Below are positions 6,012 through 64,000 of a stretch of 64,000 nt of DNA, piece after piece. The position numbers and the translations under genes were made by a program. The stretch lies in the NCBI GenBank assembly GCA_001600635.1, contig BCKL01000016.1, positions 238,449 to 302,448 on the forward strand, read 5' to 3'. Position 1 is the stretch's first letter, and each line of letters opens with the position of its first letter. The notes below the pieces were generated by a model. That model was not told the origin of the DNA and made no database searches. It worked only from the letters and a program-made list of their open reading frames with translations. Source of the stretch: Leucosporidium creatinivorum (Eukaryota; Basidiomycota; Microbotryomycetes; Leucosporidiales; Leucosporidiaceae).

Positions 6012-7133
6012 TGTGTTGACTACAGACGACAGTAAAGAGTTTGGTTGCACTCTGGAGCTGCCGAGCCGCTTGGTAAACCTTGCGGGCATGGCTAAGGTAC
6101 CGGAAGGAAGCCGAGCAGCGTGCTCGGCGATGGTTTCGAGCTGTCGCTGCTTGCGCAACGCTCCTAGTAGCGTCAAATCGTTAGACGAGGTAGGTATAAC
6201 CTATGTGAAGCTGCCACGATGCTCCAGCACACCGCAAAATCCCTTGCTGCATCTCGACAGCGGCTTGAGCTAAAACGGGGGTCCGAGCGTCAAGCCAAGC
6301 TGAGCGCACCCGTAGCTCAGCTGCAGCTCCATTACGCCTCTTTCCTCCTACCATAGCTTGCTCAGCCTTCGAGGAGCGCTCTAGCTCTGATGACAAGGCC
6401 TGTGCTGCTCTCCTACAGCGTTCTAATGTTCTCCCTCCCCTCCCCTCTCCCCCCTTGCCTCTAGCCCTTCGTCTCGCTTCTCCCATCACTCTATTAGCTT
6501 CCTAGCACTGCACTAATGCTACCCCCCACACACCACCCTATACCTGCCCTCCCTCGCCACACGCCTCCCTCTCAGTCAACCCGAGCACGAGCGCCTCCTT
6601 GTGAGGAGGACGACTGCTCTACCCACGGTCCTCGAGCTAGAACACGGTCAGTGTCGCGCGGCTATGTTTTCAGGCAGCCTCAGTGCGTAAGAAGCCTCGG
6701 CTCTTTCCCCCACCCGCTCGCTCACAGAGAGGACCAGGGCGTCAGACCGACTGGGGGATGAGAATCGAGTGGAGCCCGAGGAGTCGCCGAGCCGAGCTTG
6801 AGCAGCATCTGTAGCTGCTCAGGCATGGCTTGGTTGAGTGTGCAAGTTTTGCTTAGCTTCTTGTTTAGCTTACTACCACCAGCCGCAAGCCTACCAAACA
6901 CAACTGGACGGCTCACTTCGGTGAGTCGCCCGCAGAAACCGGCCGCCGAAACAGGGTGAGCCCATGAAGTCGGTCGCGAGGTTTATCTCGCCAATGAAGG
7001 GTGCTGAGCGTACAAGGAGAACACTGAGGCCATGACTAGCCCTTGTCGACCCGCTGTGAGCTTACAGCGAGACCAAGGCAGCCCTCTTCGCCGAGCTCCT
7101 TGGGGTCAGTCTCCCTCGGTCGAAGAGGCTTGA
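6012..7133 (+). repeat. Dispersed repeat, copy A
   Basis: One of four related ~1.1-kb blocks in the window. Shared landmarks with copy B in the same orientation: a TGTTGACTACA left end, GCTTGAGCTAAAACGGGGGT (about 6263), a pyrimidine-rich stretch (6430-6490), a tRNA-like core on the minus strand (about 6570-6645), GACTGGGGGATGAGAATCGA (about 6750), and a hairpin at 6907-6930. Similarity to copy D continues to about 7133 (CGGTCGAAGAGGC). No transposase, reverse transcriptase or other protein domain is visible, and I find no convincing terminal inverted repeats or target-site duplication, so the class (non-autonomous element, solo terminal repeat, or tRNA-related) is open. The left boundary is set by comparison with B and C only. 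Confidence 0.8.
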
Positions 7134-7479
7134 GGCAGAAAAATTGAGGTCTGCAAGTAAGCACCGAGTCTGATAGCACCTGTATATCAGCCGATGACTT
7201 CCATTCCCCTCGACTCGAGCACACGGAGCAGCTTCTCTCTCTCACTCCCCTACCTTCCGTTGTTATCTTCGCTGAACTTCGGTTTCCTCAAAAAGGAGCT
7301 CTGGGGCGCAGCGAAAGCTTCGGAAAAACACTGGATACAAATTGACTTTACATCGTGCCCGTAAAGCAGCCGAAGTTCTCAACTTCAGCTCTCGAAGCCC
7401 GTCCGCTTCTTCGCCGAGCTCGGTCGCAAGTTTCGCTTTTTACATCCAGCTGACCCTCCTTACGCCATACAGCTTCAAG
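7134..7479 (+). promoter_or_regulatory. Copied RPL5 upstream region
   Basis: This lies between repeat A and the RPL5 fragment. The last part has an intron-like end (CAGCTGACCC then CATACAG at about 7447-7472) just before the ATG, as expected of a ribosomal protein gene with an intron in its 5' UTR. That supports duplication from genomic DNA rather than from mRNA. The promoter function is inferred. Confidence 0.4.
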
Positions 7480-8084
7480 ATGCCTTCTGTTGAGACTGTC
7501 AAGAACAACGCGTACTTCTCGAGGTACCATGTGAAGTACCGTCGCCCCCGAGGTTAGTCGTCTGCAGCTTGTTGTGATTGATTTCGGAGCTGATTCGATC
7601 CCTCCCTTCTCCGATCCTCCTCGCCTCGCCACCTCCCTCTCCTCATCACTGGAATACAGAGGACAAGACCTACTACTACGGTCGCAAGCGTCTCGTCGCT
7701 CAGGCCAAGAACAAGTACAACTCCCCCAAGTACCGTCTTGTCGTCCGCATCACCAATATGGACATTATCTGCCAAGTAATTACCACCCTACATTACACCA
7801 ACAGCTCCAGGAGATCATATTGACCTTTCCTGCCGCCACAGATCGTCTCCGCCAAGCTCCAGGGAGACTTTGTCCTCACCGCCGCCTACTCTCACGAGCG
7901 CCCCTCTCGGCGATGGAAATGTGAACAAAAGAGGTCGTTTCTGCGAATGATACTACTACACGCTGGTCGGACTCGCGTCCTCAAAGTATTACGACGACTC
8001 GTCTACAGCTCATCGTCGGCCATCGTCTCGGAGGGCTGTGGAAGCGAAGAGGGTCAGCGCGTAGTCAGGCAAGAGACGTGGTAG
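7480..8084 (+). pseudogene. RPL5: Truncated copy of ribosomal protein uL18 (RPL5)
   Basis: The N-terminal part matches eukaryotic RPL5/uL18, the 60S protein that binds 5S rRNA: exon 1 7480-7552 (ending RYHVKYRRPR), exon 2 7660-7775 ([19 protein letters not shown] and [14 protein letters not shown]) and exon 3 from 7842 (IVSAKLQGDF, AAYSHE). Both introns keep frame and have GTTAGT/CAG and GTAATT/CAG signals, so this is a piece of genomic DNA and not a processed copy. After about position 7898, where the family continues with the conserved centre and C-terminus, similarity stops abruptly; the frame stays open by chance to TAG 8082-8084, giving about 143 codons against roughly 300 in the family. 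It then overlaps the 3' end of exportin-1 on the other strand. It is very unlikely to make a working ribosomal protein; a full copy should exist elsewhere. Confidence 0.85.
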
Positions 8085-11000
8085 AAGCTCACCTTGAGTA
8101 GGCCAGGGACAGCGACCGCACGCTCACGCTCCTCTTGAGCCTTTGCCGCAGCAGCAGCCTCCTTCTCATCCGCGAAGAGCTCTGCGTCTGCCCCTTCCTC
8201 GCCTTGGAACTCGCGAAGGGAGACTGCGAGGGAGTGGGTCAGCGAGGAAGGCGACGACAACGGACGATTCAACTCACTAAGGAAATCACGAAGGGTGACC
8301 TTGAACTTCACGGGGTCGTTGTTCTGCTCGCGAAGAGCGGTGACGAAAGCGTTGACCTGAGCGCTGGAGCGGGAGGAGAGTTCAGCGAAGTCGGCGAGAA
8401 GCAGACCAGTGAACGTACGCCTGGAGATGAGGGAAAGCGCGCTTGAGAAGATCGGCGCAGTAGCTTCGAACCAGATGAGAGGTTAGCTTGATGTAGCGTA
8501 AGGCGGCTGAGGAGCGACCTACTCGGCGACGTATTGAGGGTTACCGCTGGCCGCTGTGGTGGAGGGGTCGTAGAGAGGCGCCTGGATGTCGCCGCTCTCC
8601 ACGAGACGGAAGAGACGAGCAAGGACGATCGAAGTCGACTTGAAGCCGCTTTTGTGGTCGGCTGAGGGGGGAGAACGAGGTCAGCAGGGATTCGAGCTGC
8701 TCAGCGCACTTATCGCTTACCATCGGTGAGGATAAAGAAGCAGTTCTCGAGTATGGAGAGGAAGTACGCCTGGAAGAAGCCGTTCGAGGTCGTTGGGCCA
8801 GCCATGACGATGTTGTCGATCAGCTCGACGGTGATGCTGGCGAAGGGAGGGTCAGCGAGCGTCCTTCGTGCCGGGCGAGCTCCAACTCACTGCAAGCCAA
8901 GATCGGCGATGTCCCTCAGGTGATGCTTGGTAGCCCACACGACACTGTCCATGACGAGCTTGAACTGTTGCGGCGGGATCGCGAGGAGAGCCTCGAAGCA
9001 CTGGACGTTGATGGCGCGGATGAGGCGGTAGAAGGCGACGCGGTGCTCGGGGTACGAGGTGAAGTCCTCCTGGATCATCTGCAGAGTGCACTCGAAGATG
9101 GCGTCGAGAACGGCGGGGATCTTGTCGGTCATGAGGCCCTGCGCGACGAAGAGCCGAAAGTCAGCGACAGAACCGAGCCAGAGACGAGCCGGCGACTCAC
9201 TCCGAGACGAGTGACGATGGTGACCATAACACTGAGCACCTCAGCATCACGAGCAGCGGGGATGTTCTGCTTGTAATCGCCGAGGATGGCCTCGAGTAGT
9301 GGGGGAATGAGGTTCGAGTTGACCTGCTCGAGGTCCTCGGCCTTCTTGATGTAGGTCTCTCCGACGAGCTTGAGTATCTCCTTCTTGATGGTCCTCAGTC
9401 CGCGAACCTTGGGCGTCTTGGTGGCGATCAGGCCCTGCTCGGCGGTGGTCGCAGAGATGATGCCCGAGACGGCGGTGTAGAGGCCGAGGAGGTCCATGTA
9501 GATGCGGGCGATTTGGGGGAGGAAGAAGGTGCCGATCGAGGAGCAGGCCGAGACGTTGGTCTTGAGGACGTTCGAGAGAATCTTGACGTTTTCGGGGTCG
9601 GCGAGGACGTCGGTGCCCGAAGTGGCAGCCTGAGCCATGAGCGCGTCCCACTACAGTCGAGGGAGAGTCAGCGATCGAGTACAGTGATTCGAGCGAAGTA
9701 GCAGGACATACAGCAGCGTTAGGGGCGGCCATGAGGTTGGCGATGAGCTGTTCCTGCTGAGGCTTGTTGGGCTGCGCCGAGATCATGTAGCCGACGGCCT
9801 CGTAAAAAGTGTGAATCTGCAGCGGCGACAGATCGGCTGTGATGCGCTGCAAGTTGCGCAGGATCTCGTCGATGAAGGGCTCCTGCTCGCCCGACTGCTG
9901 CATGACGAAATGGCGACGGCACCTGGGAGCGCGGGGAGGGGATCAGTACACACTCTACGCGCCGGCCGTCGATCGACTCACTTCTGCGCGATCTTGATGA
10001 AGGTGTCGCAAGCCATGTCCTGAACTCCCTCGTGAGTCTCGTGAGCGAACTCGAAGAGCTTGTTGACGACCGTCTTGAGGAACTTCCAGTGGGCCTTGAG
10101 GAATCGAGGGTACTGTCCGACGATGTACATGATGTTGGAGGCGCTGTAAGTGGTCGAAGAGGGTCAGTCGGCTGCTCGGCGATGTCGAAATCCACAGGGA
10201 CTAACACGACGGCCTTGTTGTCCTTGCCCCTCTTCATCTCGGTCAAGCCGAGGAGATCTGTGGATCAATAAACCGTCAGCACGTCCGTTCCTGCTCAGAG
10301 TCGAAGCGAGAGAAGCCCACCTTTGATGACGGTGACCAAGAACCTCTTCTCCGTCTCCTCGTTCATCGCTCCAGAGATCGATCCGATGGCCCAGCAGAGG
10401 GTGTTGAGGTTGGCCCACGACCACTCGGATCCATCGACCTGCTTCGACAGCTTCTCCGTCACTGCGAGGGGTGAGACGGTGTCAGCTCTCAGCGCCGAGC
10501 AAGGCTGACCACGGCACTCACTAATCATCTCGGTATCCACGACATCCAGATGGGTGAGGTAGACGAGCACCTCGCGCATGCTCTTGTACAGCACGATGGT
10601 GTCGATCTCCTTCAAAAACTCCCTCACAATCTCGCCCTCGTCGTTCTCCACAATCAAGACCTCCTCCGGCTTGGCCATGCGCTCGACCATGACCAAGCGC
10701 AGGTTGCTGAGCACCTCGGTGTAGATGCCCCTCCTGCCGCTCGATCCGCTGCCTCCCGCTCCGCCAAAGACGCCCGATCCGCCGAGCGAGAGGTTTAGCA
10801 ACGGGTTGTTCATCTCGTTGGGGAACTTCTGCATCTCGTCGTAAAGGTCGGCGACGAGCTTGGCCCAGTACTCGAGGCAGATCTTGAAGATCTCGCGCTC
10901 CTCGACTTGGGAGATCTTGATGAGGTAGAGGTGGGCGTTGAGGAGGACGTCGCGGTGGGCGGGGGTTTCGAGGATTTGGACGTGCGAGGAGAGGAAGTTG

Positions 11001-12961
11001 GTGAGGAAGAGGGCGAGGTTGAGGACGAGCTCCTGGTCGGCGTCGGTCGAGGCCTCGTAGGCGCCGGCGATGTCGGTGGAAGGAGGGACCATCTTGTTGA
11101 CGGAGGTCATGACCACTGTGTACGAGTAAAGAGGGTCAGCGAGGTGAGCGAGGTAAGAGAGAAGGTAACGTACTGTTGAAGAGGATGATGAACTTGGAGT
11201 TGTACTCGGGGCCGATCTGAAGACCGCCAATCTCGGACAAGCACTTGAGGGTCACGTTGCGGAACTCGGGGACCTCGAGGAACTGCAGTGGAGAGTGGAT
11301 CAGCTGCTGAGAGCTATTCAGATGAGAAGAGAACGTACGCGAGTGATGAGGTGGTCGATGACGGGCGTCTCGAAGATGTAGCCGAGAGGGATCCAGTTGA
11401 GGAATCGCAGCATGGCCTCGAGCGTCGCCTTGATCAAACTAGCCTTGTCGGCCTTCTCCAACACCTCAACACATAAGCTGAACACCTCGGAGAACTCTTG
11501 GCACTGTGATGAGAGGCGAGAGCGTCAGGTCGGCGCTGGCTTCGGTCCGCCGAATCGCACGTACGATCTGAGCCTTGAGCGCCTTGGTCTTGGCCGTCGT
11601 CATCTGCTCTGCACTAAACTCGAAGATCTCCTCGGACAGAAGCTTGAGGATGACCATGTTGTTCTCGCAGATGGAGAGGTTAGCCTGTGACGAGGTAACG
11701 ATCTCGGGGATGAAGGTGGGCCACGAGTGAGGCCTGGGGAGTGGCACAAGGTCAGCAGGGTACTCTCACACCGCACTGCATTCACCACTCACCACTCCTG
11801 CTTGAGGATCTGAACGAGAATGAGGTTGAGCTTGTTGACGTAGGCCTTCTCCTTCCTGAGGGTCGTCTCGTCTCCCGAGCTCTTGACGATGACACCGACG
11901 ATGAAGTTGCGGATGCCGCTCCTCTGGTCCTCGGGCAGGACCTTCCACCGACTCTTGATGAGCTTGTCCATGATCTGAAGGGCGATGTACTTGGTCTGAG
12001 GGTTGCCCGAGCGCTCGAGGATCTCGGGGACCTTCTGCCACGCGTCGGGGTGCTCCTGGAACTGAGTGAGGACGGTTTGCGCTTGTTGTTGCTGTGCGTC
12101 GGCGCGAAGGGAAAGGTTAGCGAGCCGAAATCGAGACGCGTTCAGCAAAGCCGAGAGAACCGAGAGCTTACCTCGGCTCCCGATCCTCCAAGGAAGACCT
12201 GAGCGACCTGGTCGAGAAGTCCTACATCGAGCGGTGCTGCGAAGTTCAAGATGGCCTGTCGGAGGAGAGGAGGAGAAGGGGAGGATAGTCAGTCAGCTTG
12301 TTGTGCGAAGTTGAGCGTTTCGAGCCTGTGGAAGGCGCGACGAGTGCAGTACGGCTGCAAGAAGTCTGGAAGAGTACACAGGACCCTCCTCGAGCGCGGA
12401 AGCCATCCTCGAATGCACGACGAGCGCAACCGCCGCGAGCTATGGTCGCCGTGCTCCGCCGCCCCCATGCTGCTCCGAGCTTAACTCAGGTCTCCTTCCA
12501 AGAAGCCTGCTCAGCAACACTTGAAAATACGCTGCACCGTGCGACGCCGGCCCACGACCCTGCCTGCTGGGCTGCAGCGCGCGCCCTGTTCTGTCGGTGT
12601 CGCTCCTCCTTGATCATCCGGCTGCAGCAGAGCGCGCGACGACGGAGGCTGCTGAGGGAGCAAGACGAGCCAGCAGACCATGTGTTCCACCAGCCCACCC
12701 CTGCGCACGAGCTGCAGCGCTCTACTGACCGCCTCGGCTAAGCAGCACCACCCTCGAATCTTGCCACTCCGTCGTCCACTTTCCTCGCGCTGCAGAGGCG
12801 CTGAGATGCAGCGCTGAGGATAGTAGGAGTCCCACAGAGGTACAGACTAGGTCTAACGCCCCTGCGAGAGTTCCGCCGAGCCTCGAGGGGCGCTCTTTGG
12901 GTAACTCAACCGCAACGCACACGCCGACCCAGCTCGTTCTGCGCGGGCTACTCACCTCCAT
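8003..12961 (-). CDS. XPO1: Exportin-1 (Crm1), nuclear export receptor
   Basis: RanGTP-dependent karyopherin that carries proteins with leucine-rich export signals, and some RNPs, out through nuclear pores. Diagnostic segments: [15 protein letters not shown] near the N-terminus, [15 protein letters not shown] (importin-beta N-terminal region), [18 protein letters not shown] at about 10436-10370 in the HEAT-repeat region that forms the cargo groove, and a C-terminus of PGLLK then [10 protein letters not shown] with stop at 8005-8003. Translation starts with a two-codon exon ATG GAG (12961-12956) followed by a 700-nt intron; exon 2 begins at 12255 and gives [13 protein letters not shown], which fits the Crm1 N-terminus closely. 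More than ten introns follow, each usually with a GCTGAC branch motif. A cysteine is present at the position that leptomycin B modifies in sensitive species. Its 3' end is tail-to-tail with the RPL5 fragment. Confidence 0.95.
12256..12955 (-). other. 700-nt first intron of XPO1
   Basis: It begins GTGAGTAG directly after ATG GAG and ends CCGACAG before GCC ATC TTG. A branch-like GCTGACTGAC lies about 40 nt before the acceptor. Other introns in the window are mostly 45-90 nt, so this one is about ten times longer. I see no open frame with family features and no clear snoRNA boxes in it. Confidence 0.75.
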
Positions 12962-13786: not shown

Positions 13787-16693
13787 CTACCCAACAATCT
13801 CGACGCTCTCGTCGTCGTCGTCCTCCTTCTCCGCTTCCTCGACGAGGGCCACACGAGGTACAGAATAACCAGGGTCGCTCTTCCAGTAATGTTGATGATC
13901 GGACTGCAAGCCCTGCGGGTGGTAGTGACACAAGTGGCGGACCTGTTGGCATTCGCGAGCGTCAGCGAGACGTAAGTCGAACGAGAAGGGGAGGAGAGCG
14001 AGAGAAGTCGAGAGTACTCACAAGCTCCGACCACACGAAGTCGAACGTCTTGATAGGAAAGATGGCCTTGGGAGGCTCGTTCTGGTATCTGTAGCGATTG
14101 TAACGCATGACCTCGGCGCAATCGGTGCACTCGAAGACCGGGCCCAGGATCTCAAAGTCCTCCTCCTTCACCTCCAACACATTCAAGCCCGTCTGCCCCG
14201 CCATCTCCCGAATGATCTTGAGCCACTTGTACGAGAAGACCGAGTTGGAGGTGGATCCGCCGTGCTTGAGGTCCTCGTGGGCGAAGATGTCGAAGAGGGA
14301 ATGAGCCGAGCAGCAGTCATCGTGGGTGCAGAGAGTTTGGGCGGCGTAGAGGGATAGAATGGGGTCCATCTCTTCGGTCGTGATGTCTGTCGAGCAGTCG
14401 CGCCAGTTCTGGGGAAGGTTCGACCGGTCGACCAGGTCGTGGAGGTCGGCGATGGGTACTCCAGCTCGGCGAAGGACCTTGAGGAGCTTGTGGAAGTGCT
14501 TGACTCGGGCGATGTGCTTGTACTCCTCGATTTCGATCTCGATGTCGGGCTGAGCGGCCTCCCAAGCCTCGACGTCGACCGTCTTCCTCTGCCGAGCATC
14601 GTCCTCCCACAAAGGCTGGACCGAGTCGAATTGGAGGAAGTCCTCCGAGTTGGGGAAGAGAGTTTGATCGAGTCGGGAGAATTGCGCCTCGGAGAGGGTA
14701 GGAAGAAGCCTCCTGATCGAGTGGGCGCGAAATCCACTGCGCTGACTGGCTTCGCTCTGGTCGCGGCGTGCTGCTGCCTTCTCGACATCCTCGATGACGA
14801 CGTCGAGAATGTTCTCCCAGACTGCGACGAAATCATGAGTCGGCGACGGGAGCGAAGGGGCATGTTCGAGGTCGAAGAGCGAGGACGGCATCGAAGAGCG
14901 AGAAAGCCGAAGACGTACTCTGGTCGGTGAGAGGTGTAGTCTGAGCCACGAGCTTATGAGCCTTGTGCCCTTCGAATTGGCAGTCCCGCTCGTCGTAGCC
15001 GAGCTCAATCAAGCGGTCAAGGACTCTGCGGGAAAAAGAGGTCAGCTCGGCGCCAAAACCCGCTCGAGCAACGACGGCTCACGCGAACCATCGCTGTTCT
15101 TTAGCTCGCGTGATAGCAGCGACGCGCTCGTTCTCAGCATCCTCGGCCCACTTGGTGAGGGCTGCACCGTCCTGCGTAATGGTGGGAGGGCTCAGCGAGC
15201 TCGACTAAGACGAGGAAACGACTAACTCACCGCTCGCGCCGTCGCGACAGCCTGCATCAAGTCCGCAAGTAATACGACGAATGGTGTTCCAGCATAGCAA
15301 GTGCACCTCTCTCCGGGATAGCCGTATCGCTGGCATGTGCACGGCTTGGCCTCGAAGCCTCGAAGACGGTCGTCGATGAGGCGCACGTCGGTCAAGCTGT
15401 AGTGTTCTACGATGGGAGGTCAGCGATGTCGGAGCAGCCAGATACTATGAACATACCAGAAATGTTGGTATAACGATTGCCGGCCCATTGGCGGCCTGGA
15501 ACTGGACACCGAGTGTCAGCTCGGCGAGGCTGAGGGACGGTGAACGAAGAGTAACGCACTGGGATGCGACGGGGTGCAGCGCAGTGTCTGGTAGAACAGA
15601 GAGTTCCCGCTCTGAATGAACGCTTTACGGATGGCTTCGATGTCGAGGAAGCTATAGCGGAAATTGTGTGAGTTGTCGGTCGAGTTCGAGGCTGAAGGGA
15701 GCAGGGACCTACTCTTTAGCCTTGCCTGCATGTTTGGAAGGGAGAGAAAAGATGAGCGAAGTCCTGCCTCTCTATGGGACTCTCAAATACCTGCAGCCTT
15801 TGCACCAGCGCTTGCGGAGGTAGTAGTCCACGACGCCAGCTCGGTCGCGGCCACAGCTCTGCGAGAACCACAATTGATTAGCGAAGTGAGCGGACAGAGA
15901 GCCGACGCTATAGTCTCCTACCACGCAGGACTTGTCATAGAGGAAGGCAGCCAGTTGAGGCTCGGAGAGCTTCATCGTCCCCGTGAAGGCCGGCAGTCCG
16001 CTGTTCTGGCGAGCCGAGGACCACAGGTACTTGCTCTGCTTGGTCATGAGCACTCGACGGAAGTTGCGGTCGACTCGGGAGAGCTGTAGGAGGTCGTCGA
16101 GGCCGAGAAGGGAGCAGATCTGTGACAGGACCTGTCAGCGAGCCGTTCGCCGAGCACGTCGAAAGAGCGCCAGGCGCTGCTCACCTCGCTGAGGATATCC
16201 AACGGCATATTCTTGAAGTACTCCGACCGACCAGCATTGCCTCGGAGCTTCCTGGGACCAGAAGGCTGGGAGGTGCGTGCGCGCTTGGGCGCCGGTTTCG
16301 CTACTGGTGAAGAGAGTGGTCAATGAGTTGCTCGAGGGCAGTGAGCTAACGAGAGGGTACCGCTTACCAACCTGAGCCTCCTCGTCGGCCTTCTGCTTGC
16401 TTTTGCCCTTGGCTGAACGAGCTGGAGTGCTGTTGATCTGAGCGGGCGCCTCTCGGACGGCACCTGTACGGGAACAGATCGGTCAGCCAGAGCAGCTCCA
16501 AAACGCTTCCGCAAGACCGTGTACACTACTCACCAGCTGCTACCTTGCCCTTGACTGCAGCAAGGCCTTTGCTGGTCCCCACTTTCGCCTTCTCCTGCTG
16601 CTTCTGTCGCTCGCTGACGGCATCCTCGGGTGCAGAATCGTCCGAAGGTACTTCTCGATAGTTGGCCTTGATCGCTCGACGTCTCGGCGGCAT
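13787..16693 (-). CDS. F-box protein with zinc-binding cysteine motifs, paralog 1
   Basis: Predicted substrate receptor of an SCF ubiquitin ligase. It starts at ATG 16693-16691 (MPPRRRAIKANYREVP), a basic, low-complexity N-terminus rich in Lys. The F-box follows (NMPLDILSEICSLLGLDDLL), then a conserved ARQNSGLPAF block, a CVSCGRDRAG ... RKRWCKGC pair (CxxC-x-CxxC, likely a zinc ribbon), acidic and coiled regions, a CTHDDCCS motif near 14310 and a C-terminal CTDC ... HLCHYH arrangement that could bind a second zinc. It ends EKEDDDDESVEIVG, stop at 13789-13787, on an exon joined after ..VWSEL. About nine introns. The gene at 44054-47107 has the same order of blocks and is a paralog. The F-box assignment is firm; the zinc roles are inferred from Cys/His spacing and the substrate is unknown. 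Confidence 0.8.
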
Positions 16694-17087: not shown

Positions 17088-18160
17088 TTGACTACATAGC
17101 ACGACATGGGAGCTTATGATCCAGCCTGAGCTTGTACAGCAGCGCGACGGCTTTTCGAGCGCGACCGAGTCGAGCTGAAGAGCGCGCAGCTGCTCGGCGA
17201 CGATTTTTGCGCTATTGCTGCTTGCGCAAGGCTTTTATTGGCTTCGAATCGGCAGGGAAGGTAGTTGTACACTTGATAAAGTTACGCCGATGCTCCAGCA
17301 CAGTGCAGAACCGCTTGCTGCATCTCGAGAGCGGCTTGAGCTAAAACGGGGGTCCGAGCGTCAGGCCAAGACGAGCTCGCCTGTAGCTCAGCTGCAGCTC
17401 GGTTTCGCCTCTTTCCCTCCTACCACATCTTGCTCAGCCTTGGCGGAGCGCTCGAGCTCTCATGACAAGGCCTGTGCTGCTCTCCTACAGCGTTCTAATG
17501 TTCTCCCTCCCCCTTCCCGCTCCCCCCTTGCCTCTACCCCTTCGTCTCGCTTCTCCAATCACTCTGTTAGCTTCCTAGCAGTACTGATACCCCCACATAC
17601 CACCCTACACCTGCCCTCCCTCGCCACACGCCTCCCTCTCAGTCAACCCGAGCACGAGCGCCTCCTTGTGAGGAGGACGACTGCTCTACTCACGGTCCTC
17701 GAGCTAGAACACGGTCAGTGTCGCGCGGCTATGTTTTCAGGCAGCCTCAGTGGGTAAGCCCTGCCTCTTCCCCCACCCCGCTAGCTCACATAGAGGACCA
17801 GGGCGTCAGACCGACTGGGGGATGAGAATCGAGTGGAGCCCGAGGAGTCGCCGAGCCGAGCTTGGACAGCATCTGTAGCTGCTCAGGTTTGGCTTGGTTG
17901 AGTGTGCAGGTCTTGCTTAGATTCTTGTCTAGCTTGCTATCACGCCGCAAGGCTACCCAAACACAACTGGGCGGCTCACTTCGGTGAGTCGCCCACAGAA
18001 ACCGATCGCCGAAACAGGGTGAGCCCATGAAGTCGGTCGCGAGGGCTATCTCGCGAATGAAGGGTGCTGGGTACGCAAGCATACTCGCAGATTGGTCAGA
18101 GCTACTTGGCGATGCGCCATGAGCTCCCAGCGGTGCCAGTTGAACCCCCCTCGCCGAGCT
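17088..18160 (+). repeat. Dispersed repeat, copy B
   Basis: Same orientation as copy A and clearly homologous over its length: TGTTGACTACA left end (17088), GCTTGAGCTAAAACGGGGGT (about 17335), pyrimidine tract (17500-17570), tRNA-like core on the minus strand (about 17635-17715), GACTGGGGGATGAGAATCGA (about 17812), hairpin at 17970-17993. Similarity fades after about 18080 and the right edge is approximate. B and C are closer to each other than either is to A: they share a ~95-codon stretch with no stop and almost identical sequence (17786-18082 on the minus strand), which A has lost. Confidence 0.8.
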
Positions 18161-18425: not shown

Positions 18426-20553
18426 CTAATCACTCTCACTTCCGTCGTCCTCGGCTCCTTCGGCTCCCTCCAACACAACCCCCTTCGCCTCGCAAACCTG
18501 CCTCACGGAGAAGCACCACCTCTCACTCCACTTCTCTCCCCCGCTTCCCGTCTTCCCCTCCCTCATCTCGGGCAACGTCAACTTCCTCACAGGCGGCGCA
18601 CCTCCCTCGGCGCAGGGCATCTTGCAGAGGGCGGAGTGGAGGGCGAGGGGAGTGAAGGCGGGGGCGTTGGTGACGAGGAGATGGGTTAGGTTGGTGGAGG
18701 GTTGGAGGAAGATCGCGGGGGAGATGAGGGAGCCCGAAACGTGCAGGAGGCGGAGGTGGGAGAGGGATGGGAGGGAGTGGTCGAGTGGGAAGTTGGTGTC
18801 GTCTGTGGGAGAATGTCAGGGTCAGCGATCTACTTCCGATGTCTCGCAAGCAGAGCTGCTTCTTCTCTCCCTCTCCTCGACCGCCGACCACCGCCGAGAA
18901 AGAAGGAGGGACGGAAGCAAGCAACTCACCTTCCTCCTTCGCCCCAAACCACGATCCTCCCACTCTGAGCTCCACCAAGTTGGGGCACTTCTTCAAGAGA
19001 TGCGTCAGTCCCCTCTTGGAGAGCAAGGACGAGCGCCAGAGGGTGAGCTTCTTGAGCTGCGAAGCGTTACCGAGGAGGTGAAGGAGATCGGAATTGGTGA
19101 TGCTGTAGGCGGAGAAGCGAAGATCAGCTTCGTCGGTCTTTCAACTTGGACAGTGAGGCGAGCGGCGAAGTAGAGAACGGAGAGGAGGCGAGCACAGACG
19201 AGGCGAGACGGCGAGAAAGACCTACTTGACCTCGACGAGCACGACCTCGACCAGTCGACAGTTATGCGGCTGATTCGGTGGGCTGGTACTGGAGTCGGAA
19301 GAGATGCCGCATAGTCGGAGCGTGCGAAGAGAGCGAAGAGTTGCGAGGGGTTTGATGAACTGCGCCGAGGTCCAGAGTTAGCTCGGCGCTTCTTCGCGAT
19401 GGAGGAGGGGGAAAAGGAAAAAGCAGCACACTCACCTGACTGACACTCCACATCGCCTGACCTTTCCCTGCACCTCCTCCTGCATGACCACCTTTGGCCC
19501 TCCATCCAACGTCCATTCCCTCACTCGCTCCGGCACCTTTGCCTTGGTTGGCGGGGAGGACGGTGAGGGAGGGAGAGTCGCTGGGAGATAGGGCGGAAGC
19601 GATGGAGGGTTCCAGGTCTTTGGTGAGAGTGTGGAGGTGCTTGAGCTGTTCGAGTCGGGGGAGTGAGGAGGGATGGAAGGAAGAGGCAGGGAGAGAGAGG
19701 GCGAGGTAAGCTACTCCGAATCGTCGAGACGTCCGCCCGAGAGAACCGCGGAGTAAGATCAAGAGCGAGACTCACATCAACCAAACTTCCACACAAGCTC
19801 TGCGTCCAGGCCGAAGCGTCCGCCGGCAAGTAGAGGGTGAGAGTGAGGAGCTGGCGGCAGGAGCCGATGATGCCGCAGAGGGAGTGGAGCGAGTGGAAGA
19901 GGAACCAGCCTGGTTGACGAATAGTGAGGGTGAGATGGGAGGGCAGGGAGGGGACCAAGTCAGCTCGGCGTTCATTCGCTTGGTGTTTGAGTAAGTGCCG
20001 CCGGCTCGCCCTTCCCACATCCCTCGACCCAGAGAAGGCTACATATCTCACAAGAAGGACTGGAATGTAACTCACCGACCCACTGACTGCTCGTCTTGCT
20101 CATCCTCCCCACGTCGGCCTCGACGCCTCGGACGACCCTAGCCACCTCATTGCCGTGCAGAGTTCGGTGCAGCGCATGCGCATTGACCCTCGTATCTATC
20201 CTGAGCTCCCTGTACATGTGTGTCCTCGCATGTGGGAGCAGCGAGCGCGACACGAGCGAGAAGGCGAAGAGGGAAGGCAAGTCGGGCTCAGCGGGCGGGG
20301 AGAGGTGCGAGAGGATGAGGGCTAGTAGCTCGGAGGAGAGGGGAGAGAGTCGATCTGCTGGTGTAGTCGAACGGGTGGGCTTGCGAGCGGGCGACGGCGC
20401 CCGGCGCTTGGAACGGCGAGTTGAGGTCGTAGGCGGGGCGGGCGGGGCAAGAGGAGGGATGGCAGGAGTAGCGATGGCGGCAGCAGCAGCTTGCTGTAGC
20501 TGTCTAGCATCCTCGGCTGCTTGCTGCGCTCGGCGAGTGGCTCGAGGCGCCAT
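18426..20553 (-). CDS. F-box / leucine-rich repeat-like protein
   Basis: Likely SCF ubiquitin-ligase adaptor. Translation starts at ATG 20553-20551 (MAPRATRRAQQAAEDARQL) and passes an Ala/Pro-rich basic segment with RRSKRRAP. An F-box follows (LSPLSSELLALILSHLSP ... FAFSLVSRSLLPHARTHMYR). The rest is rich in Leu spaced like degenerate leucine-rich repeats (LLTLTLYLPADAS, KKLTLWRSSLL-type strands, KCPNLVELRVGGSWFG) over at least five exons with GCTGAC-type branch sites. The last exon includes LTLPEMREGKTGSG and ends VVLEGAEGAEDDGSESD at 18426. It is divergent from the acetyltransferase gene at 20812, with only 258 bp between start codons. Recognised target: none. Exon joins in the LRR part are approximate. 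Confidence 0.68.
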
Positions 20554-20811
20554 TCGAGAGATGAGAGCTGCGTGGAGTGGGAGGGTGCTGACTTGAGAGA
20601 GTCGAGAAGATGCAGAAGTGGAGAGTAGAGGGTGGGCCAGTGGGTGTAGCTCTGTAGGCTGGTAGGTCGCTGGGCTGGTTGGTAGCTGCTCCTGTTGAGC
20701 TACAGCGAGGGCTCTTGAGAGAGGAGGGATGTGGCGGGAGTCAGACCCATTTCGCCGCTCTCTCTTCCGCTCTTCACTGCTCGTCAACCTGATTTCTGCA
20801 CCTCATCAACC
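20554..20811. promoter_or_regulatory. Divergent promoter, F-box/LRR gene and GNAT gene
   Basis: The two start codons point away from each other with only 258 bp between them, so this interval must contain both promoters. It holds AGCTACAGCG (about 20698) and AGCTCTGTAGGCTGG (about 20648), variants of the GCTGTAG/CTACAGC word that recurs in non-coding DNA of this window. No TATA box seen. Confidence 0.55.
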
Positions 20812-22149
20812 ATGATCTCGACAACCGAGCCGCTCGTACTCCGCCAAGCTACCACTGAGCAATGGCTGCAGTGCACCGCTCACACGCACCCTCAGTGGGG
20901 AGGAGGAGTCTCGTTGGAGCTGTACAAGGACAGGGAGAAGCTGCTGAGGGAGGAGACGGGGGACATGGGAAGTAGCTTGATCTGCTGGTGAGTCCGGGGA
21001 GGCTGCAGGGGCGCATCTCGGCGTTCTGCTAGGAGCTCGTCGGATGAGACGCTGACGCTACATTTCAACAGGGTCCTTCTTCCTGCCTCCGCCTCACACG
21101 ATTCACTCGACTTCTACTCCTCATGTGAGACCTACCTCCGCCCCATCCTCCACCTCTCGCCCTCGCCCTCTCAATCGGCGCCGAGCCCGGGGTCAAAGCC
21201 CAGGAAGGCCGAAAAGGCTACAGCGTACTCGATCGCCTCCGTCTTCACCCCTGCTCAACATCGTCGGAAAGGCTACGCCAGGCAGATGATGCGGCTGCTG
21301 CACGACGAGCTTCGGCGCTCGCCGTCCCCTTCCTCATCCACCCCCTCCGCCGACGAAGGAGCACCTCCCCTTCTTTCCTTCCTCTACTCCGACGTCGGGA
21401 ACTTTTATTCTAGCTGTCCTGACCGAGTTAGCGGAAAGGGCTGGGAGGTGCAGGGCACGGAGAGGACGACTCAGTGGGATCTCTCCAGCTCGCTCCGCTC
21501 CCCTCCTACGTCGCTTGAGTTTCCAGGATGGGGTACGAAGCAGATCACTGTGAAGGATCTACCCGACATCGCCAGCCGAGACGCAGCCCTCCTCACCTCA
21601 TCCTTCTCCTCCGCCGAACCCTCCTCCTCCGACTCGGACAAACATCCCTTCCTCGTCCTCCCCACTCCATCTTCCTCCCTCTGGTCCCTCACTCGATCTG
21701 CATACTCCTTCACCTCCCGAGGGTTCGACGCGCCCAGCGTCTGGGGCTTCGAACTGGCTCGCTCGGCGCCGGCGGCAGGGACGGAGGAGGGCAGCAACTG
21801 GGGCTTCGTCTTGCTGGCGATAGATCAAAAGGAGGCGAAGAGCAAGATCCTTCGTCTCCGCCTCCCTATCCCATCATCAAGCGCCTCGACCACCTCTCCC
21901 TCCCCCGAGCAACTCGGCGCCCAGCTTATACACCTCGCCGCCTCCCTCGCTCGTCAACACGGGATGACCAAGCTCGAAGGATGGAACATCTCTCCCGCCG
22001 TTCTCTCGACGTTGGAGGGTGGCAAGAAGGGAGATGGAGGAACGACGGCCAAGAGGAACGACAGCGAGAGCGCCGTGGCTTGGTATGGCGAGGGAGTGGG
22101 CAAGGGGCAGGTCGAGTGGAAGCTGAATGAGGGGTATGCTTGGTGCTGA
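20812..22149 (+). CDS. GNAT-family N-acetyltransferase, LYC1-like
   Basis: Predicted acetyl-CoA-dependent N-acetyltransferase. The layout resembles fungal LYC1, which acetylates the N6 amine of lysine in lysine catabolism: a short N-terminal half (MISTTEPLVLRQATTEQW, WGGGVSLELYKDRE), then the acetyl-CoA-binding motif A AQHRRKGYARQMMRLLHDEL near 21255-21312 with the R-x-x-G-x-A loop, then a FLYSDVGNFYSSCPDR block and a long C-terminal domain typical of the LYC1 group. One intron (about 20989-21071) splits the Trp codon of SLICW and restores VLLPAS. The rest is a single exon to TGA 22147-22149. The ATG at 20812 gives the expected N-terminus. The substrate is inferred from family resemblance only. 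Confidence 0.75.
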
Positions 22150-23944: not shown

Positions 23945-23968
23945 CTCGGCGCTGGAAAGCTTAAATAG

Positions 23969-40679: not shown

Positions 40680-41765
40680 GTCGAGCCTCGGCGGGCGCCG
40701 TAAGGCCTTGTCCGCCCTGCCGTGAGCTCGCAGCATGTCGACAAGAGCTACTGATGACCTCAGTGCGCTGCCTGTAGGCTCACAAGCACTCATTCGAGAG
40801 ATAGCCCTCGCGACCGACTTCATGGGCTCACCCTGTTTCGGCGATCGGTTTCTGTGGGCGACTCACCGAAGTGAGCCGCCCAGTTGTGTTTGGGTAGCCT
40901 TGCGGCGTGATAGCAAGCTAGACAAGAATCTAAGCAAGACCTGCACACTCAACCAAGCCAAACCTGAGCAGCTACAGATGCTGTCCAAGCTCGGCTCGGC
41001 GACTCCTCGGGCTCCACTCGATTCTCATCCCCCAGTCGGTCTGACGCCCTGGTCCTCTATGTGAGCTAGCGGGGTGGGGGAAGAGGCAGGGCTTACCCAC
41101 TGAGGCTGCCTGAAAACATAGCCGCGCGACACTGACCGTGTTCTAGCTCGAGGACCGTGGGTAGAGCAGTCGGCCTCCTCACAAGGAGGCGCTCGTGCTC
41201 GGGTTGACTGAGAGGGAGGCGTGTGGCGAGGGAGGGCAGGTGTAGGGTGGTGTGTGGGGGTATTATTAGTGCTAGGAAGCTATTAGAGGGACAGTAGTAG
41301 CGAGACGAAGGGGTAGAGGCAAGGGGGGGGAGAAGGGAGGGCAGGGAGAACAGTAGAACGCTGTAGGAGAGCAGCACAGGCCTTTTCATAAGAGCTAGAG
41401 CGCTCCTCGAAGGTTGAGCAGGATGTGGTAGGAGGAAAAGAGGCGAAACGGAGCTGCAGCTGAGCTACAGGCGAGCTCGTCTTGGCCGGACGCTCGGACC
41501 CCCCGTTTTAGCTCAAGCCGCTCTCGAGATGCAGCAAGCGGTTCTGCGGTCCTCTGGAGCACAGATGTAACTTGTCGTACTGTACATCTACCTTCCCTAA
41601 GGTTTTGAAGCCAGTAGGAGCCTTGCGCAAGTGGAGACCGCTCCGAGACCATCGCCGAGCAGCTGCTCCTTTTCCGGCTGCGCTCGCTTACCTTCCTAGG
41701 CTGTCGACTTCACGCGGGGGCTCGAGAGAGGCCCTTATACCTCTCGGAAATGGTTTGCGGTCGAC
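40680..41765 (-). repeat. Dispersed repeat, copy C (inverted relative to A and B)
   Basis: Reads as the reverse complement of copies A and B: hairpin at 40857-40880, then the block containing CTCATCCCCCAGTCGGTC (about 41025), tRNA-like core on the plus strand (41134-41212), purine-rich stretch with an eight-base G run (41324), CCGTTTTAGCTCAAGC (about 41502) and the right edge near 41765, where TGTGTCGACC on the minus strand matches the TGTTGAC end of A and B. The inner part is almost identical to copy B, so these two copies look the youngest or have been converted to each other. No protein domain recognised. Confidence 0.8.
41134..41212 (+). other. tRNA-like core of repeat copy C
   Basis: TAGCTC (41144) and GGTAGAGC (41160) form a D-arm-like GCTC/GAGC pair around an enlarged loop. 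A perfect 6-bp stem GCCTCC/GGAGGC with loop TCACAA (41173-41190) resembles an anticodon arm. CTCGGGTTGACTGAG (41198-41212) resembles a T-arm/B-box that has lost one or two bases. The same block occurs on the minus strand in copies A and B. An acceptor stem is not apparent, so it is not an intact tRNA gene; it may be tRNA-derived. Confidence 0.4.
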
Positions 41766-42033: not shown

Positions 42034-42792
42034 CTACTCCAATACCTTTCGAACCCTCCTCGGCCTCCAGCATCCAGCAGCTCCAACTCGCTCTACTCGT
42101 CCGCCAGCCCCACCGCCACGCCTGAAGAGCACGAAAGGCTTCTCCTCCGTCGCAACGCCTTCCTCCGCACGGATAGTCAACTCTGACAAAGAAGGGTGGA
42201 GACCAAACAGGCTCCGCGCTTCCCTGGCAAGATGCATCCTTTCATAATGGACTCGCCACGCGCCGGGTTCGGTTTGAGTCCTGATCAAGACTTCGGCGTA
42301 GAGGTCGCTGTGCAACGAATGGGTCAGATCAAACTGCGAAGTGGAGTGTAATCTGAGCCCACGTCTTGAACGAGGAGAGAACAGGAAGTTGGTGGATCAA
42401 GTCGCGGAGGCGAATCTGCGCGCGCCGAAAAGCGGGTCAGGCGCAGCTCGGCGGTGAAGAAGGAAGCTCAGCCTACCAGATCCCACTGATGTAGAAGTAG
42501 AAACGTAGAAACGCTAAGCCTGAATCCGAGTACAACATGCTCGAGCTTCCCGCCGAGAGGAAGAAGCCGCTCCAGGGCGCTGAGAGCTTCCGGACGATTC
42601 CCCCATGGCATTGAGTGCAGCTCTAGAGTGGTGAGCGAGTCGAGCTCAAGGGTCGCTTTGAGGAGATCGACGGTACTCTCCTTGCTGGGGATAGCTCGGC
42701 TAGTTGCTTTGTGTGTGAAGGTCGACGATGAGGGTTTCGAGCTCGACTTGCCCTTCCATGCCTGGAGATCAAGGTCACTACCTGGGGGGCAA

Positions 42793-42841
<49 letters not shown>

Positions 42842-43650
42842 GATGGCTTGCTCACCTGAATGATGCTGGTGACGACTTGCGTAGCATCGTCGGGGAGCGA
42901 GCATAGGTCGAGCTTATGAAGCGAAGCGAGCAAGGTCGGACAGAACCAAGTGGAGTCGAACTCGGCGACGTCTTCAAGAGTCAGCTCGTTCAGGGAATGA
43001 AGCGTGCCGTCCTCGCCTGGAGTGATAATGAGACTGACGAGCACGAGGCGGCGCAGCGTGGTCAGGCTTTGGAGCTGGAGGGGGGTTTGGTCGGGGCAGG
43101 CGCAGCAGCCCAGTGCTTCGAGCTCGGGAAGCGCGAGTACAGCGTCCCACACCGAAGATACAAAGGGGACGTAGGTGTCGTATAGTCCTTCGATGACGGA
43201 CTGGACGTCGAAGAGATCAGCGAACGCTCGGCGCGGCGTTGTCAGATCCTCACGGTGACTCACAAGCTGCAGCGTCTTGATCCCTGTAGCTTGACGGAGC
43301 ACAAGCGCAAGTTGACGCATCTCGAGCTCTCCCATCCAAGCCCACTCGCGCACGCCCAGCTCACGCATCAGCTTGCAGCGCTCGGCGTCGGCCGCTAGAC
43401 TCGCCAGCACGCTCTGCACGACTAGGCGGGTCGTCTCCTGCAGCTCTTCGACGTCGCTCGACCACAACTGGACGCTCCTGTACAGCTGGGGCTGGACGGC
43501 ATCCCTGACGAAGCGCGAGGCGAGAGAGAAGCGAGCGAGCGAGCCGAGAGGAAGGTAGGAAGCGATGTCGGAAAGTAGCTCAGGCGGGAGGGAGGTGAGC
43601 GATGTAGCAGCTTCCTCCTGTAGTGAGAGCGAGGCGAGTGAAGCTTCCAT
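42034..43650 (-). CDS. F-box / leucine-rich repeat-like protein 2
   Basis: Starts ATG 43650-43648 (MEASLASLSLQEEAATS) with an F-box directly after (SLPPELLSDIASYLPLGSLA ... FVRDAVQPQLYRSVQLW). Leucine-rich strands follow: TGIKTLQLVSHRED, LPELEALGCCACPDQ, TTLRRLVLVSLIIT, LNELTLEDVAEF, LHKLDLCSLPDD. An intron (42856-42763) follows SIIQ; it contains a 48-base C run on the coding strand, and the frame resumes with AWKGKSSSKPSSSTFTHKA and LELDSLTTLELHSMPWG, LEHVVLGFRLSVSTFLLL. Two further introns give IRLRDLIHQLPVLSSFKT and DLYAEVLIRTQTEPGAW ... LSELTIRAEEG, ending RRVRKVLE at 42034. It would act as an SCF adaptor; the target is unknown. Divergent from the F-box/zinc gene at 44054. Confidence 0.72.
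42793..42840 (+). repeat. 48-base G homopolymer inside an intron
   Basis: Unbroken run of G on the plus strand, with a shorter run of six just left of it. On the gene strand it is a C run between the donor GTGAGCAAGCC and the branch/acceptor GTAGTGACC ... CTCCAG, so it sits where a polypyrimidine tract would be. The true length is uncertain because homopolymers are hard to sequence. Confidence 0.85.
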
Positions 43651-44053
43651 CGTCGTCGTCGTTGAGCTGTTCGAACGTCGAAAGCGATTAGCGGGTCTGA
43701 GCGCGGCGAGTGGGCTGAGAGAGCGGTACAGGGACCTACCTCAAAGCAGCGAGCAGTCGCGGGTAAGCTGTAGCGAAGCAAGCGGTCCAAAGCGAGTCGA
43801 AGCTGTAGACGAGTGAAGCGCAGGAGAGCAAGAGAGCCGACCTCAACCTCACGGTTCGAGCTCGGACTCTCTTACAGCGCTACAAGGTTCGAGCTGGTCC
43901 TGTCGTGTCTGCAGGGCTAGGAGTTCAGCTGCTACCTTATCAACAGGTCGGGCTTTCGAGAGACGCCATCACCCCTTTTCTCAGCCAACTCACTCGACGC
44001 GCCGAGCTGAACTTGTTTGTCTCCTTCGTCATCTCGCCGCCTTCGCCTCCGAC
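43651..44053. promoter_or_regulatory. Divergent promoter of two F-box genes
   Basis: About 400 bp between start codons that point away from each other. GCTGTAG occurs at 43767 and 43802 and CTTACAGCGCTACAAG near 43871. It must contain the promoters of both genes if the start codons chosen are right. Confidence 0.5.
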
Positions 44054-53418: not shown

Positions 53419-53711
53419 TTTTTACTCGTTTATTTCGCAGTGCAACGCTAGACTTGATGTCTCGTGTGAGCTTCGTCGTCTTCGCCGAGAGCTAGCGCCG
53501 AAAAGGGTTCGGCGAGGATTGAGCGAGGTGTTACAGAGCGCTCAGTGAGTCGGTGTATACATTAACTACAATTCTGTACCACTGTACGCTCTTTGGCGTC
53601 TCTACCCGAAAATGCACCGCTTCAGGGCAGGTCCGAGGCCTCCGAAGAGGTCGTCCGTACGAAGTCGACGAAGTTGTCTTTCGACCACATCTCGCCTCAC
53701 AGCAAATTAAG
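53419..53711. promoter_or_regulatory. Short intergenic region before the GH16 gene
   Basis: About 290 bp between two plus-strand genes; presumed promoter and 3' UTR. The open frame reading through it into the next gene (from 53553) has no signal peptide and is not used. Confidence 0.4.
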
Positions 53712-57273: not shown

Positions 57274-57667
57274 GTGGGAGAGAGCAGGGAGAGAGGGAAA
57301 GGGGGATGATGAGGTGAGGAGGGGACAGCTTAGATAACGATATGACATGACACGAGCGTTCGAATTCCGACTTGGAGATGCCACAGCGAGGAGAGACGGC
57401 GAAGTGGGAGAATCGGAGCGAGACTCAGCCGGCCGCCCTCGCCGAGCAGGGATCGCCGAGCAGGCCCCTTTCCCGGCATTGAAGGAGTCGGAGAGCGCCA
57501 GATTTTGCTGTAGACCGCTATGACCCTATACAGCGATACCTCGTGGCTCCGAATGCGCCTCCGCGGAGAAGTCACCCTCGAATGAAGTGGGGCCTCCCTC
57601 GTCGCGCTTCTTGCCTTCCTGCTCCTCACTTGCCCATCTCATCGCCTCCCAGCACTCTTAAGCATCC
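57274..57667. promoter_or_regulatory. Intergenic region before the SDR gene
   Basis: About 390 bp; presumed promoter of the dehydrogenase gene and 3' UTR of the GH16 gene. It carries CGCCGAGCAGGGATCGCCGAGCAGG (a doubled CGCCGAGCAG word, about 57440-57465). No gene seen. Confidence 0.4.
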
Positions 57668-59079: not shown

Positions 59080-59282
59080 ATCTGCAAGCGTAACATATCA
59101 GGGTATCTTGGACTTAGCTGCAAGTCGAGCTCTGCGAAACGGCGGCGACGGAGCCGCACTGCTCTTGGCTTCCCATCGCATCTCAACTTCGCCTCAGTCG
59201 CGCTTCTGCATCACACATCAAACCGCTGCTGCTCTGCCAGGCCACCTAACTCGCTCTGCACCCTTGCAACGCGTCTCAAACA

Positions 59283-62200: not shown

Positions 62201-62674
62201 TCGACTTAAGCCTGCACTCGAGTCCAAAAGCGATGATGCTGATCGCTCGCTCCCCTGCCTTCTTTTCCCCTACTCTCCGCACCTTCACCCCACGCTACTT
62301 CACCGCCGAGCAGCACCTCGAATCCCTCGCCTCCACTTCACCCCGCTACACCGCCGCCATGCACGGTCCCATCACGACTGCATCACTCAAGGCGCTCTCC
62401 TCGGTACGTCTCCTCATCTGTTTGCCCCCTCCTCCAGCCTCCCGCTGACCCTTGCCCTCCCTCCTCGTAGGCTGGCGGCCTCCAAATCACCTACCCCGAC
62501 TTCCGCGTCTCCTTCCTCGAACACCTCCAATCTCAGGGAGCCGAAGGTGTGCAGATGTTCCTGTTTGCGAGTCTGAGTAAGCTGGCGAGGAGGAGCTCAG
62601 CTGGAGGGAGTCAGAGCCAGAGTCAGAGCCAGGGAGGAGGGCGGGAGGGGAGCGTGATGAATGGGGCGCAGTGA
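59283..62674 (+). CDS. Inner kinetochore protein CENP-I / Mis6
   Basis: Constitutive centromere protein of the CCAN that helps load CENP-A and outer kinetochore parts. ATG 59283 (MDARLNSLLRQLEQ) leads through about 12 exons of helical-repeat sequence: LNSGQIARGYDLALGGHL, VQKRALGQLVVCLQVGAVS, LERLWAVLERGLEYRALR, LLCLITRRIHVQEARISHL, then KRRKTTQAYIPLGASYTSS. The Mis6-family core follows (QVIFDLVSLLKPRAFE, LQAHILAPLHALAIKANAEW, SSLQAILEYADRLIE, LRCAALVFYETALTLPLEYG) with FLNNYLRDFVNALWQKKFLE, YFTAEQHLESLASTSPRY and ITYPDFRVSFLEHLQSQG. It ends VMNGAQ at TGA 62672-62674. Assignment rests on the order and spacing of these blocks, especially the DLVSLLKPRAFE segment, and on the length. Exon limits near 60350-60480 and 61700-61820 are approximate. 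Confidence 0.78.
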
Positions 62675-62807
62675 GAGGGAAATGGAGAGTCTGTGATGCT
62701 TGTTGTAAGGGATTAGTGTAGTATCGCGAGTGAGCGGTGAGGAGAAGCGCCGAGAAGGGCTGAGCGCCGAGCTCGGCTAACATGTCGCCTTGAGCTTCCT
62801 CAGGCCT

Positions 62808-63058
62808 GAGCCAGCTGGGTTACGAGCAAGGGGCGCAGGTTGGAGGTCAAACCGCAGCAAGATGTTGCACCGAGGGTGTTCCTGTTGCTCAAGGGAGTGA
62901 CGCAGGAAGAGAGTGAGGGATGGTGGAGGGCCGAGGAGGTCGATTGGGTCAAGGAGGTCGGCGTTGAGCAGGATAGGTTCGGCGATGAGAAGCTGTTCCG
63001 AGTGCTCGAGTGGGGTGGTATGGAGGCCATCGTGCTAGAGATGTCTCTTTTGAGTTGA
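62808..63058 (+). pseudogene. Gene fragment, 3' part of an unassigned protein
   Basis: An open frame with protein-like composition (RLEVKPQQDVAPRVFLLLKG, ESEGWWRAEEVDWVKEVG, VLEWGGMEAIVLEMSLLS) runs from an in-frame stop just upstream to TGA 63056-63058. It has no ATG near its start and no good upstream acceptor in phase, and it lies between the CENP-I stop and repeat copy D. It looks like the last exon of a gene cut off from its front, or a last exon whose first part I failed to find. No family recognised. Confidence 0.4.
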
Positions 63059-63084
63059 TGCCTGCATTACGAAGTCGATGTGCC

Positions 63085-64000
63085 GTCTCACGCCTCTTCG
63101 ACCGACAGAGCCTGACCTCGAAGAGCTCGGCGAAGAGGGCTGTATCGATCTCGCTGAAAGCTCACAGGGAGTCGCCAAGAGCTACTGATAACCTCAATGT
63201 TCTCCTTGTACACTCAGCAGCACTCATTCGCGAGATAGTCCTCGCGACCGACTTCATGGGCTTACCCTGTTTCGGCGACCGGTTTCTGCGGGCGACTCAC
63301 CGAAGTGAGCCGCCCAGCTGTGTTTGGTAGCCTTGGGGCTAGTGGTAGTAAGCTAAACAAGAAGCTAAGCAAGACCTGCACACTCAACCAAGCCTAACCT
63401 GAGCAGCTACAGATGCTGTCCAAGCTCGGCTCGGCGACTCCTCGGGCTCCACTCGATTCTCATCCCCCAGTCGGTCTGACGCCCTGGTCCNNNNNNNNNN
63501 NNNNNNNNNNNNNNNNNNNNNNNNNNNNNNNNNNNNNNNNNNNNNNNNNNNNNNNNNNNNNNNNNNNNNNNNNNNNNNNNNNNNNNNNNNNNNNNNNNNN
63601 NNNNNNNNNNNNNNNNNNNNNNNNNNNNNNNNNNNNNNNNNNNNNNNNNNNNNNNNNNNNNNNNNNNNNNNNNNNNNNNNACAGAGCGATTGGAGAAGCG
63701 AGACGAAGGGGCAGAGGCAAGGGGGGGAGAGGAGAGGGGAGGGAGAACATGAGAACGCTGTAGGAGAGCTGCACAAGCCTTGTCATGAGAGCTGGAGCGC
63801 TCCTCGAAGACTGAGCAGGATGTGGTAGGAGAGAAAGAGAGGAAACCGAGCTGCAGCTGAGCTACAGGCGAGCTCGTCTTGGCCTGACGCTCGGACCCCC
63901 CGTTTTAGCTCAGCCGCTCTCGAGGTGCAGCAAAGGTTTCTGCGGTGTGCTTGAGCAGTGAGGCAGCTTTATAGAGCTTATATCTACCTCCCCTGCTGAT
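63085..64000 (-). repeat. Dispersed repeat, copy D (inverted; runs off the window, contains the N gap)
   Basis: Same orientation as copy C. Matches begin at about 63085 (the CCTCTTCGACCGACAG edge shared with copy A), include the hairpin at 63291-63314 and the CTCATCCCCCAGTCGGTC block (about 63460), continue after the gap with GCTACAGGCGAGCTCGTCTT (63862) and CCGTTTTAGCTCAGCC (about 63901), and leave the window at 64000. The tRNA-like core expected in the middle falls in the run of N. Confidence 0.78.
63491..63680. other. Assembly gap, 190 N
   Basis: Unbroken N run inside repeat copy D. Compared with copies A-C, about 220-240 bp of repeat sequence would be expected here, so the gap size looks slightly short. 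The assembler probably failed because of the other near-identical copies. Confidence 0.95.

Follow-up and report, generated by a model that had tools for sequence, protein, structure and literature searches.

A small, locally clustered family of non-coding repeats with a conserved 3′ hairpin in Leucosporidium creatinivorum: possible structured RNA genes

Searches of the whole genome (an assembly of 27.7 Mb in 63 contigs) revealed a family of 16 clear copies and one far-diverged copy of a repeat, the counts from the DNA searches being lower bounds. The copies are spread over five contigs, most of them in one of three local groups. The reading that we favour, although we hold its truth to be about evenly balanced, is that they make up a small family of structured non-coding RNA genes that would be undergoing concerted evolution within clusters. 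Such a family would be the best account of the sequence constraint, the strand sense, the non-coding core and the absence of defined ends, again with about an even chance of being right; the case rests mainly on the constraint.

The window, by which we mean the whole 64-kb stretch of DNA that was analysed (C16:238449-302448), was compared with itself. This yielded four copies, A to D, whose matched pieces are 84.4–93.6% identical with E-values of 4e-94 or less, in the orientations and close to the places given in a preliminary description of this DNA (Table 1). The first ~100 bases assigned there to A, B and C are not common to the copies. Copies B and C had been called nearly identical inside, which is true of their 3′ part; 49 identical polymorphic sites follow one another in a single run in this pair, and overall identity is 92.1% over 878 columns. 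The suggestion that A and D are older or have diverged is weak on the measured identities to the other C16 copies (A, 87.0–89.8%; D, 86.5–93.2%; B, 89.8–95.0%; C, 86.7–92.3%).

Table 1. Repeat copies, their conserved elements and neighbouring genes in the 64-kb window
Feature	Window position	C16 position	Strand	Remarks
Copy A	6112-7068	244560-245516	+	3′ homology to some copies extends to 7237
Copy B	about 17180-18069	255628-256517	+	further ~90 bases 3′ common with C16:208028 copy
Copy C	40719-41668	279167-280116	-	5′ homology to C16:357 copy extends to 42008
Copy D	about 63088-64000	about 301536-302594	-	~150 bases beyond window end; match to A reaches 62987
190-N run (assembly gap) within copy D	63491-63680			sequence
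Conserved 3′ hairpin, copy A	6906-6931		+	hairpin pattern, one mismatch to motif
Conserved 3′ hairpin, copy B	17969-17994		+	hairpin pattern
Conserved 3′ hairpin, copy C	40856-40881		-	hairpin pattern
Conserved 3′ hairpin, copy D	63290-63315		-	hairpin pattern
Central conserved block, copy A	6630-6658		+	block pattern search
Central conserved block, copy B	17697-17725		+	block pattern search
Central conserved block, copy C	41125-41153		-	block pattern search
RNA12 (YME2-like) gene, exon pieces	1012-3420		+	upstream of copy A; PF10443
CRM1/exportin gene, exon pieces	8057-11251		-	downstream of copy A, convergent
Local-family ORF	about 13965-15008		-	upstream of copy B, divergent; without clear Pfam match
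Coding-like ORFs	18429-19140		-	downstream of copy B, convergent; without clear Pfam match
F-box protein gene	42781-43740		-	upstream of copy C, same strand

A genome search with the DNA of copy B placed nine copies on C16 between 208 and 400 kb, a region that includes the window, at about 208, 233, 244 (A), 255 (B), 279 (C), 302 (D), 313, 357 and 399 kb; six are on the + strand and three on the - strand. Elsewhere, the same search identified four copies on C1 (1610-1760 kb), two on C14 (642 and 703 kb), one on C63 and, in three pieces, the far-diverged copy on C22. No additional core was found in the genome with the C1, C14 and C22 copies as DNA queries, and the DNA upstream of the C22 copy is without a second core. 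A pattern describing the 3′ hairpin, with up to three mismatches allowed, matched 16 forward sites, every one of them in a known copy, against 1 and 0 in the control; the 16 reverse sites are these hairpins again, in the opposite reading direction. The central block is present exactly in 12 of the 17 copies and nowhere in the control, and a shorter form of the block pattern gave no excess (84 and 65 sites versus 91 and 77 in the control). The preliminary description had extrapolated from the density of copies in the window to hundreds of copies or more in the genome. With about 17 found by DNA and pattern searches of the entire assembly, this is not borne out and a high-copy, genome-wide repeat is not supported; its characterisation of the family as dispersed, unclassified and non-coding, with an ordered set of landmarks, was confirmed. 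An exact search for a 23-base pattern in GTDB genomes and IMG/VR gave no match, a result of little weight since both collections are non-fungal. The portions of the literature covered by our search held no account that we recognised of such a repeat family.

Core identity is 86.5–97.7% within C16, 88.6–90.4% within C1 and 88.7–94.6% within C14/C63, falling to 72.6–82.9% between these groups. In the tree, the C1 and C14/C63 copies each form one fully supported branch and the C16 copies one branch with weaker support (76/99); the C22 copy stands far off, its terminal branch measuring 0.96 changes per column. Among eight C16 copies (D was left out), four pairs contain runs of 149, 58, 49 and 44 identical polymorphic sites, and runs as long arose in 0 of 1000 permutations. 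Moreover, the pair at 208 and 233 kb has 900 middle bases without a substitution between ends that have diverged. These long identical runs and the 208/233 centre are a gene conversion pattern.

The flanks of the copies bear on how the family has spread. The copy at 233 kb is downstream of what seems to be a complete RPL5 gene, whose exon pieces were read by eye from start to stop, and the copy at 208 kb adjoins just the 3′ part of RPL5 with its introns retained; the RPL5 identity comes from Pfam and PDB matches obtained with the homologous ORF at 208. Other pairs too have duplicated neighbours in common, for example a ubiquitin-like domain gene after the copies at 357 and 399 kb. The intron-bearing fragment and the shared duplicated neighbours make an RNA-mediated origin of these flanks unlikely, and the spread of the family looks DNA-based. 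One larger segmental duplication had been raised as an alternative to a repeat family. Some pairs do have longer duplicated flanks, of 1.9 kb at C16:208/233 and 2.1 kb at C16:357/399. In most C16 pairs, however, little is common beyond the core of 0.9–1.1 kb, and the copies are therefore not one large segmental duplication.

The evidence that carries most weight is the distribution of variation along the core. Variability profiles within the C16, C1 and C14/C63 groups, with copy D and the C22 copy left out, covary with Spearman rho values of 0.81, 0.58 and 0.62 in 40-column blocks and 0.55–0.82 in blocks of 30 and 60 columns, correlations to which alignment edge effects may add. One block is without any variation within all three groups. 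Between groups, blocks that are 87–91% identical alternate with blocks near 50% when gaps are counted as differences, and the middle is variable. Of the 480 columns that are the same in six chosen copies, the C22 copy retains 321. Since conversion tracts by themselves would hardly lead three separate groups to vary at matching positions, the likely cause is purifying selection acting on these blocks in each group.

For one hairpin there is a fair structural case. The 12-bp 3′ hairpin hardly varies among 16 copies and is still a hairpin in C22. In the alignment of the 17 copies (10 distinct rows), 97.5% of its 120 cells are paired, and sliding the partner by 1–3 columns leaves 33–48% paired. 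Two pairs are doubly changed, both from C22 alone, a number as high in 6 of 500 shuffles, and C22 also breaks the loop-closing pair; the seven additional pair types do not exceed what shuffles give (332/500). Stems of at least 11 pairs were formed by 45 of 3000 shuffled versions of the C22 stretch and by 26 of 3960 windows of 90 bases taken at random from the region. G-U is found at one pair in 9 of the 10 distinct rows and at another in 7, pairs that become A-C mismatches on the other strand. The two best alifold windows likewise have z values of -2.3 and -3.0 on the + strand versus -0.7 and -1.6 on the - strand; most of the 17 windows have weak z on both strands. Outside this hairpin there is little variation with which to judge pairing, and a long stem predicted at the 5′ side mispairs in three sequences, which are of the C14/C63 type by alignment. 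A covariance model matches C22 at the homologous place with 28 bits (E 6e-8 in 3.2 kb), much of which may be sequence score.

Gene calling used a codon score trained on 974 codons, with a cut-off of 45 for eight C16 copies and 25 for the other nine, and no coding-like segment reached these scores in the respective cores. Pfam searches with two ORFs over copy B returned weak, unrelated matches, none convincing. With neither a coding score nor more than such matches, a protein-coding gene or pseudogene was rejected. A short open frame (MKSVARAIS...) begins in the last conserved 3′ block; as read from the alignments, its length varies among the groups, which makes coding doubtful. Rfam gave 0 matches over the window, a best E of 3.9, with everything below the cut-off, over four loci, and none up to E 1 on C22; there is no tRNA in the window.

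The main rival, a modest possibility in our estimation, is a non-autonomous mobile element making local hops, whose core would consist of structural signals for machinery encoded elsewhere and which would have picked up flanking host DNA. Copies are dispersed singly among unrelated genes, those on C16 in either orientation; where genes were called on both sides, as for 14 copies, they are never a divergent pair; and the intron-bearing RPL5 fragment beside a copy would fit such capture. The C22 copy, moreover, is flanked by two direct repeats of ~240 bp that are 96% identical (C22:398834-399071 and 400592-400828), to which no third match was listed in a genome search and which are either LTR-like or the remains of a tandem duplication. 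No flanking direct repeats were seen around the copies in the window and the C16 region. Against this explanation, homology ends at different points in different pairs, leaving no shared ends; the copies are few and in few places; and the constraint runs in parallel in three groups, which dead copies would lose. As the preliminary description had supposed, terminal inverted repeats are missing: none of at least 14 bases joins both ends of the four window copies with their flanks, and a single 16-base inverted pair, 81% complementary, has one arm within copy C and the other outside.

Nor is transposon machinery evident near the copies. That there is no transposon protein held for the ORFs near the copies that were scanned, in a partial survey of 60 Pfam ORF queries, some repeated, that took in 20 of the 173 window ORFs of at least 120 codons in two of its scans; within the DNA scanned, the core does not run on into a known transposon, the outcome that would have spoken for one. 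A genome search for RVT_1 listed 16 places, of which 15 exceed the cut-off, a count to be taken as a minimum. C16, C14, C22 and C63 have none of those listed, and the sole one on C1 is 1.3 Mb from the C1 copies; the listed places thus lie elsewhere, and copies inside retrotransposon islands were discarded as an explanation. The RVT_1 matches bunch in short islands (C26:156-193 kb, C12:216-254 kb, C24:90-159 kb and C32:159-164 kb) that are perhaps centromeres. A search for Helitron_like_N gave no match in the genome and was positive in no control genome. Helitrons begin with 5′ TC, end in 3′ CTRR just after a hairpin and insert between A and T. The ~60 conserved bases beyond the 3′ hairpin and the varying ends are a poor fit to a Helitron end.

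Analysis of the neighbouring genes showed that the nearest called downstream gene is directed towards the copy in 17 of 17 cases, at a distance of 9.7 kb for D and at most 2.4 kb for all others. The upstream gene is on the same strand in 10 copies and divergent in 4, with none called in 3; at C16:208 it is the RPL5 fragment, behind which lies a - strand gene. Two weak segments at copy edges run contrary to this arrangement, one on the + strand (C16:208971-209180, score 26) and one on the - strand (301381-301479, score 23), both below the C16 cut-off. Ten of the 14 two-sided copies occupy convergent intervals, one of these counting the C16:208 RPL5 fragment. Orientation cannot vary in convergent intervals, and the safe statement is therefore that the divergent intervals yielded no copy. 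A promoter of one neighbouring gene was set aside, since in every case it is the 3′ end of the downstream gene that faces the copy and the upstream strand is inconstant, as was a mating-type locus element, matches to the pheromone receptor STE3 being on C25 only.

This setting could suit a conserved cis-acting element, such as an insulator, terminator, origin or chromosome-organising site, which would act as DNA and which we rank third and think unlikely. The uniform direction of the downstream gene and the prevalence of convergent intervals speak in its favour; information on orientation, however, comes solely from the four tandem cases, of which two are related C1 copies. A constrained stretch of this length is unusual for cis-acting sites, and pairing that tolerates G-U favours RNA.

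Duplicated genes adjoin the copies in several pairs (C16:357/399, the C1 copies and the RPL5 fragment), as would be expected if the repeat were functionless UTR or intergenic sequence carried along as a by-product of local gene-family duplication. We regard this as improbable: many neighbours are unrelated (RNA12, CRM1, F-box, RPL5, an EH/UBA-domain protein, an amino-acid permease and chitin synthase, with a LYC1-type GNAT nearby), the strand of the upstream gene is inconstant and the constraint is seen in three groups.

The region has further features of its own. The local-family ORF (window 13983-14822 in the family comparison) has relatives, ~27-32% identical, at C16:284358-285239 and 310025-310888, and these ORFs are near three repeat copies. 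Two related genes 30 kb apart, at C16:229553-230971 and 259236-260594 (window 20788-22146), are ~43% identical over 389 residues, and the second has a match to the LYC1-type acetyltransferase domain. Within the F-box ORF, 48 consecutive G residues at window 42793-42840 are possibly an assembly or sequencing artefact. In C16:185-385 kb, CGCCGAGC occurs 179 times against 63 expected from a third-order Markov model with the cores masked, a ~3-fold excess.

If the family is one of RNA genes, each copy would encode a structured RNA of ~0.5–0.9 kb on its + strand, that is, on the window + strand for A and B and on the - strand for C and D; we infer transcription, the limits of the RNA and its role as the functional product from the sequence. 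The family would occupy intergenic space and would have spread by local DNA duplication, sometimes with pieces of neighbouring genes, and gene conversion would keep the copies alike within each cluster. As a guess, promoter and start may lie in the conserved block at the 5′ side and the middle rich in pyrimidines, and the RNA may correspond to the hairpin-containing 3′ half. A more elaborate version, in which each contig's cluster has its own form of a chromosome-associated RNA, kept uniform by conversion and marking the region for pairing or silencing, for example, strikes us as very unlikely.

RNA genes of this kind would represent a conserved fungal RNA that matches nothing in Rfam, in an unusual setting of ~17 copies mostly bunched in gene-dense regions and homogenised per cluster. 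They would offer tests of concerted evolution between non-tandem copies and of why a fungus retains so many of them close together. Were the family a mobile element instead, it would combine strong constraint with local spread.

Among known systems, LARD and TRIM elements are non-autonomous retroelement derivatives without coding capacity, and Helitrons have a 3′ hairpin and can capture pieces of genes. Like these and non-autonomous Helitrons, the repeat is non-coding, with a conserved interior and no protein. It differs from LARD and TRIM in that there are no shared ends and flanking direct repeats are seen at the C22 copy alone and at none on C16, and from Helitrons in that a further ~60 conserved bases lie beyond its hairpin. 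At sme2 and other meiotic lncRNA loci of fission yeast (PMC6898681), a fungal lncRNA is reportedly tied to a particular chromosomal site. The repeat, if transcribed, may be likened to sme2, with the difference that it has several paralogous copies per contig. Multicopy families of structured non-coding RNA that undergo concerted evolution include dispersed 5S rRNA and snRNA genes. Although the repeat is without an Rfam match, longer and bunched within a few hundred kilobases on few contigs, it resembles these families, as a candidate RNA gene, in being dispersed, intergenic, non-coding, probably structured at least partly and apparently homogenised by conversion.
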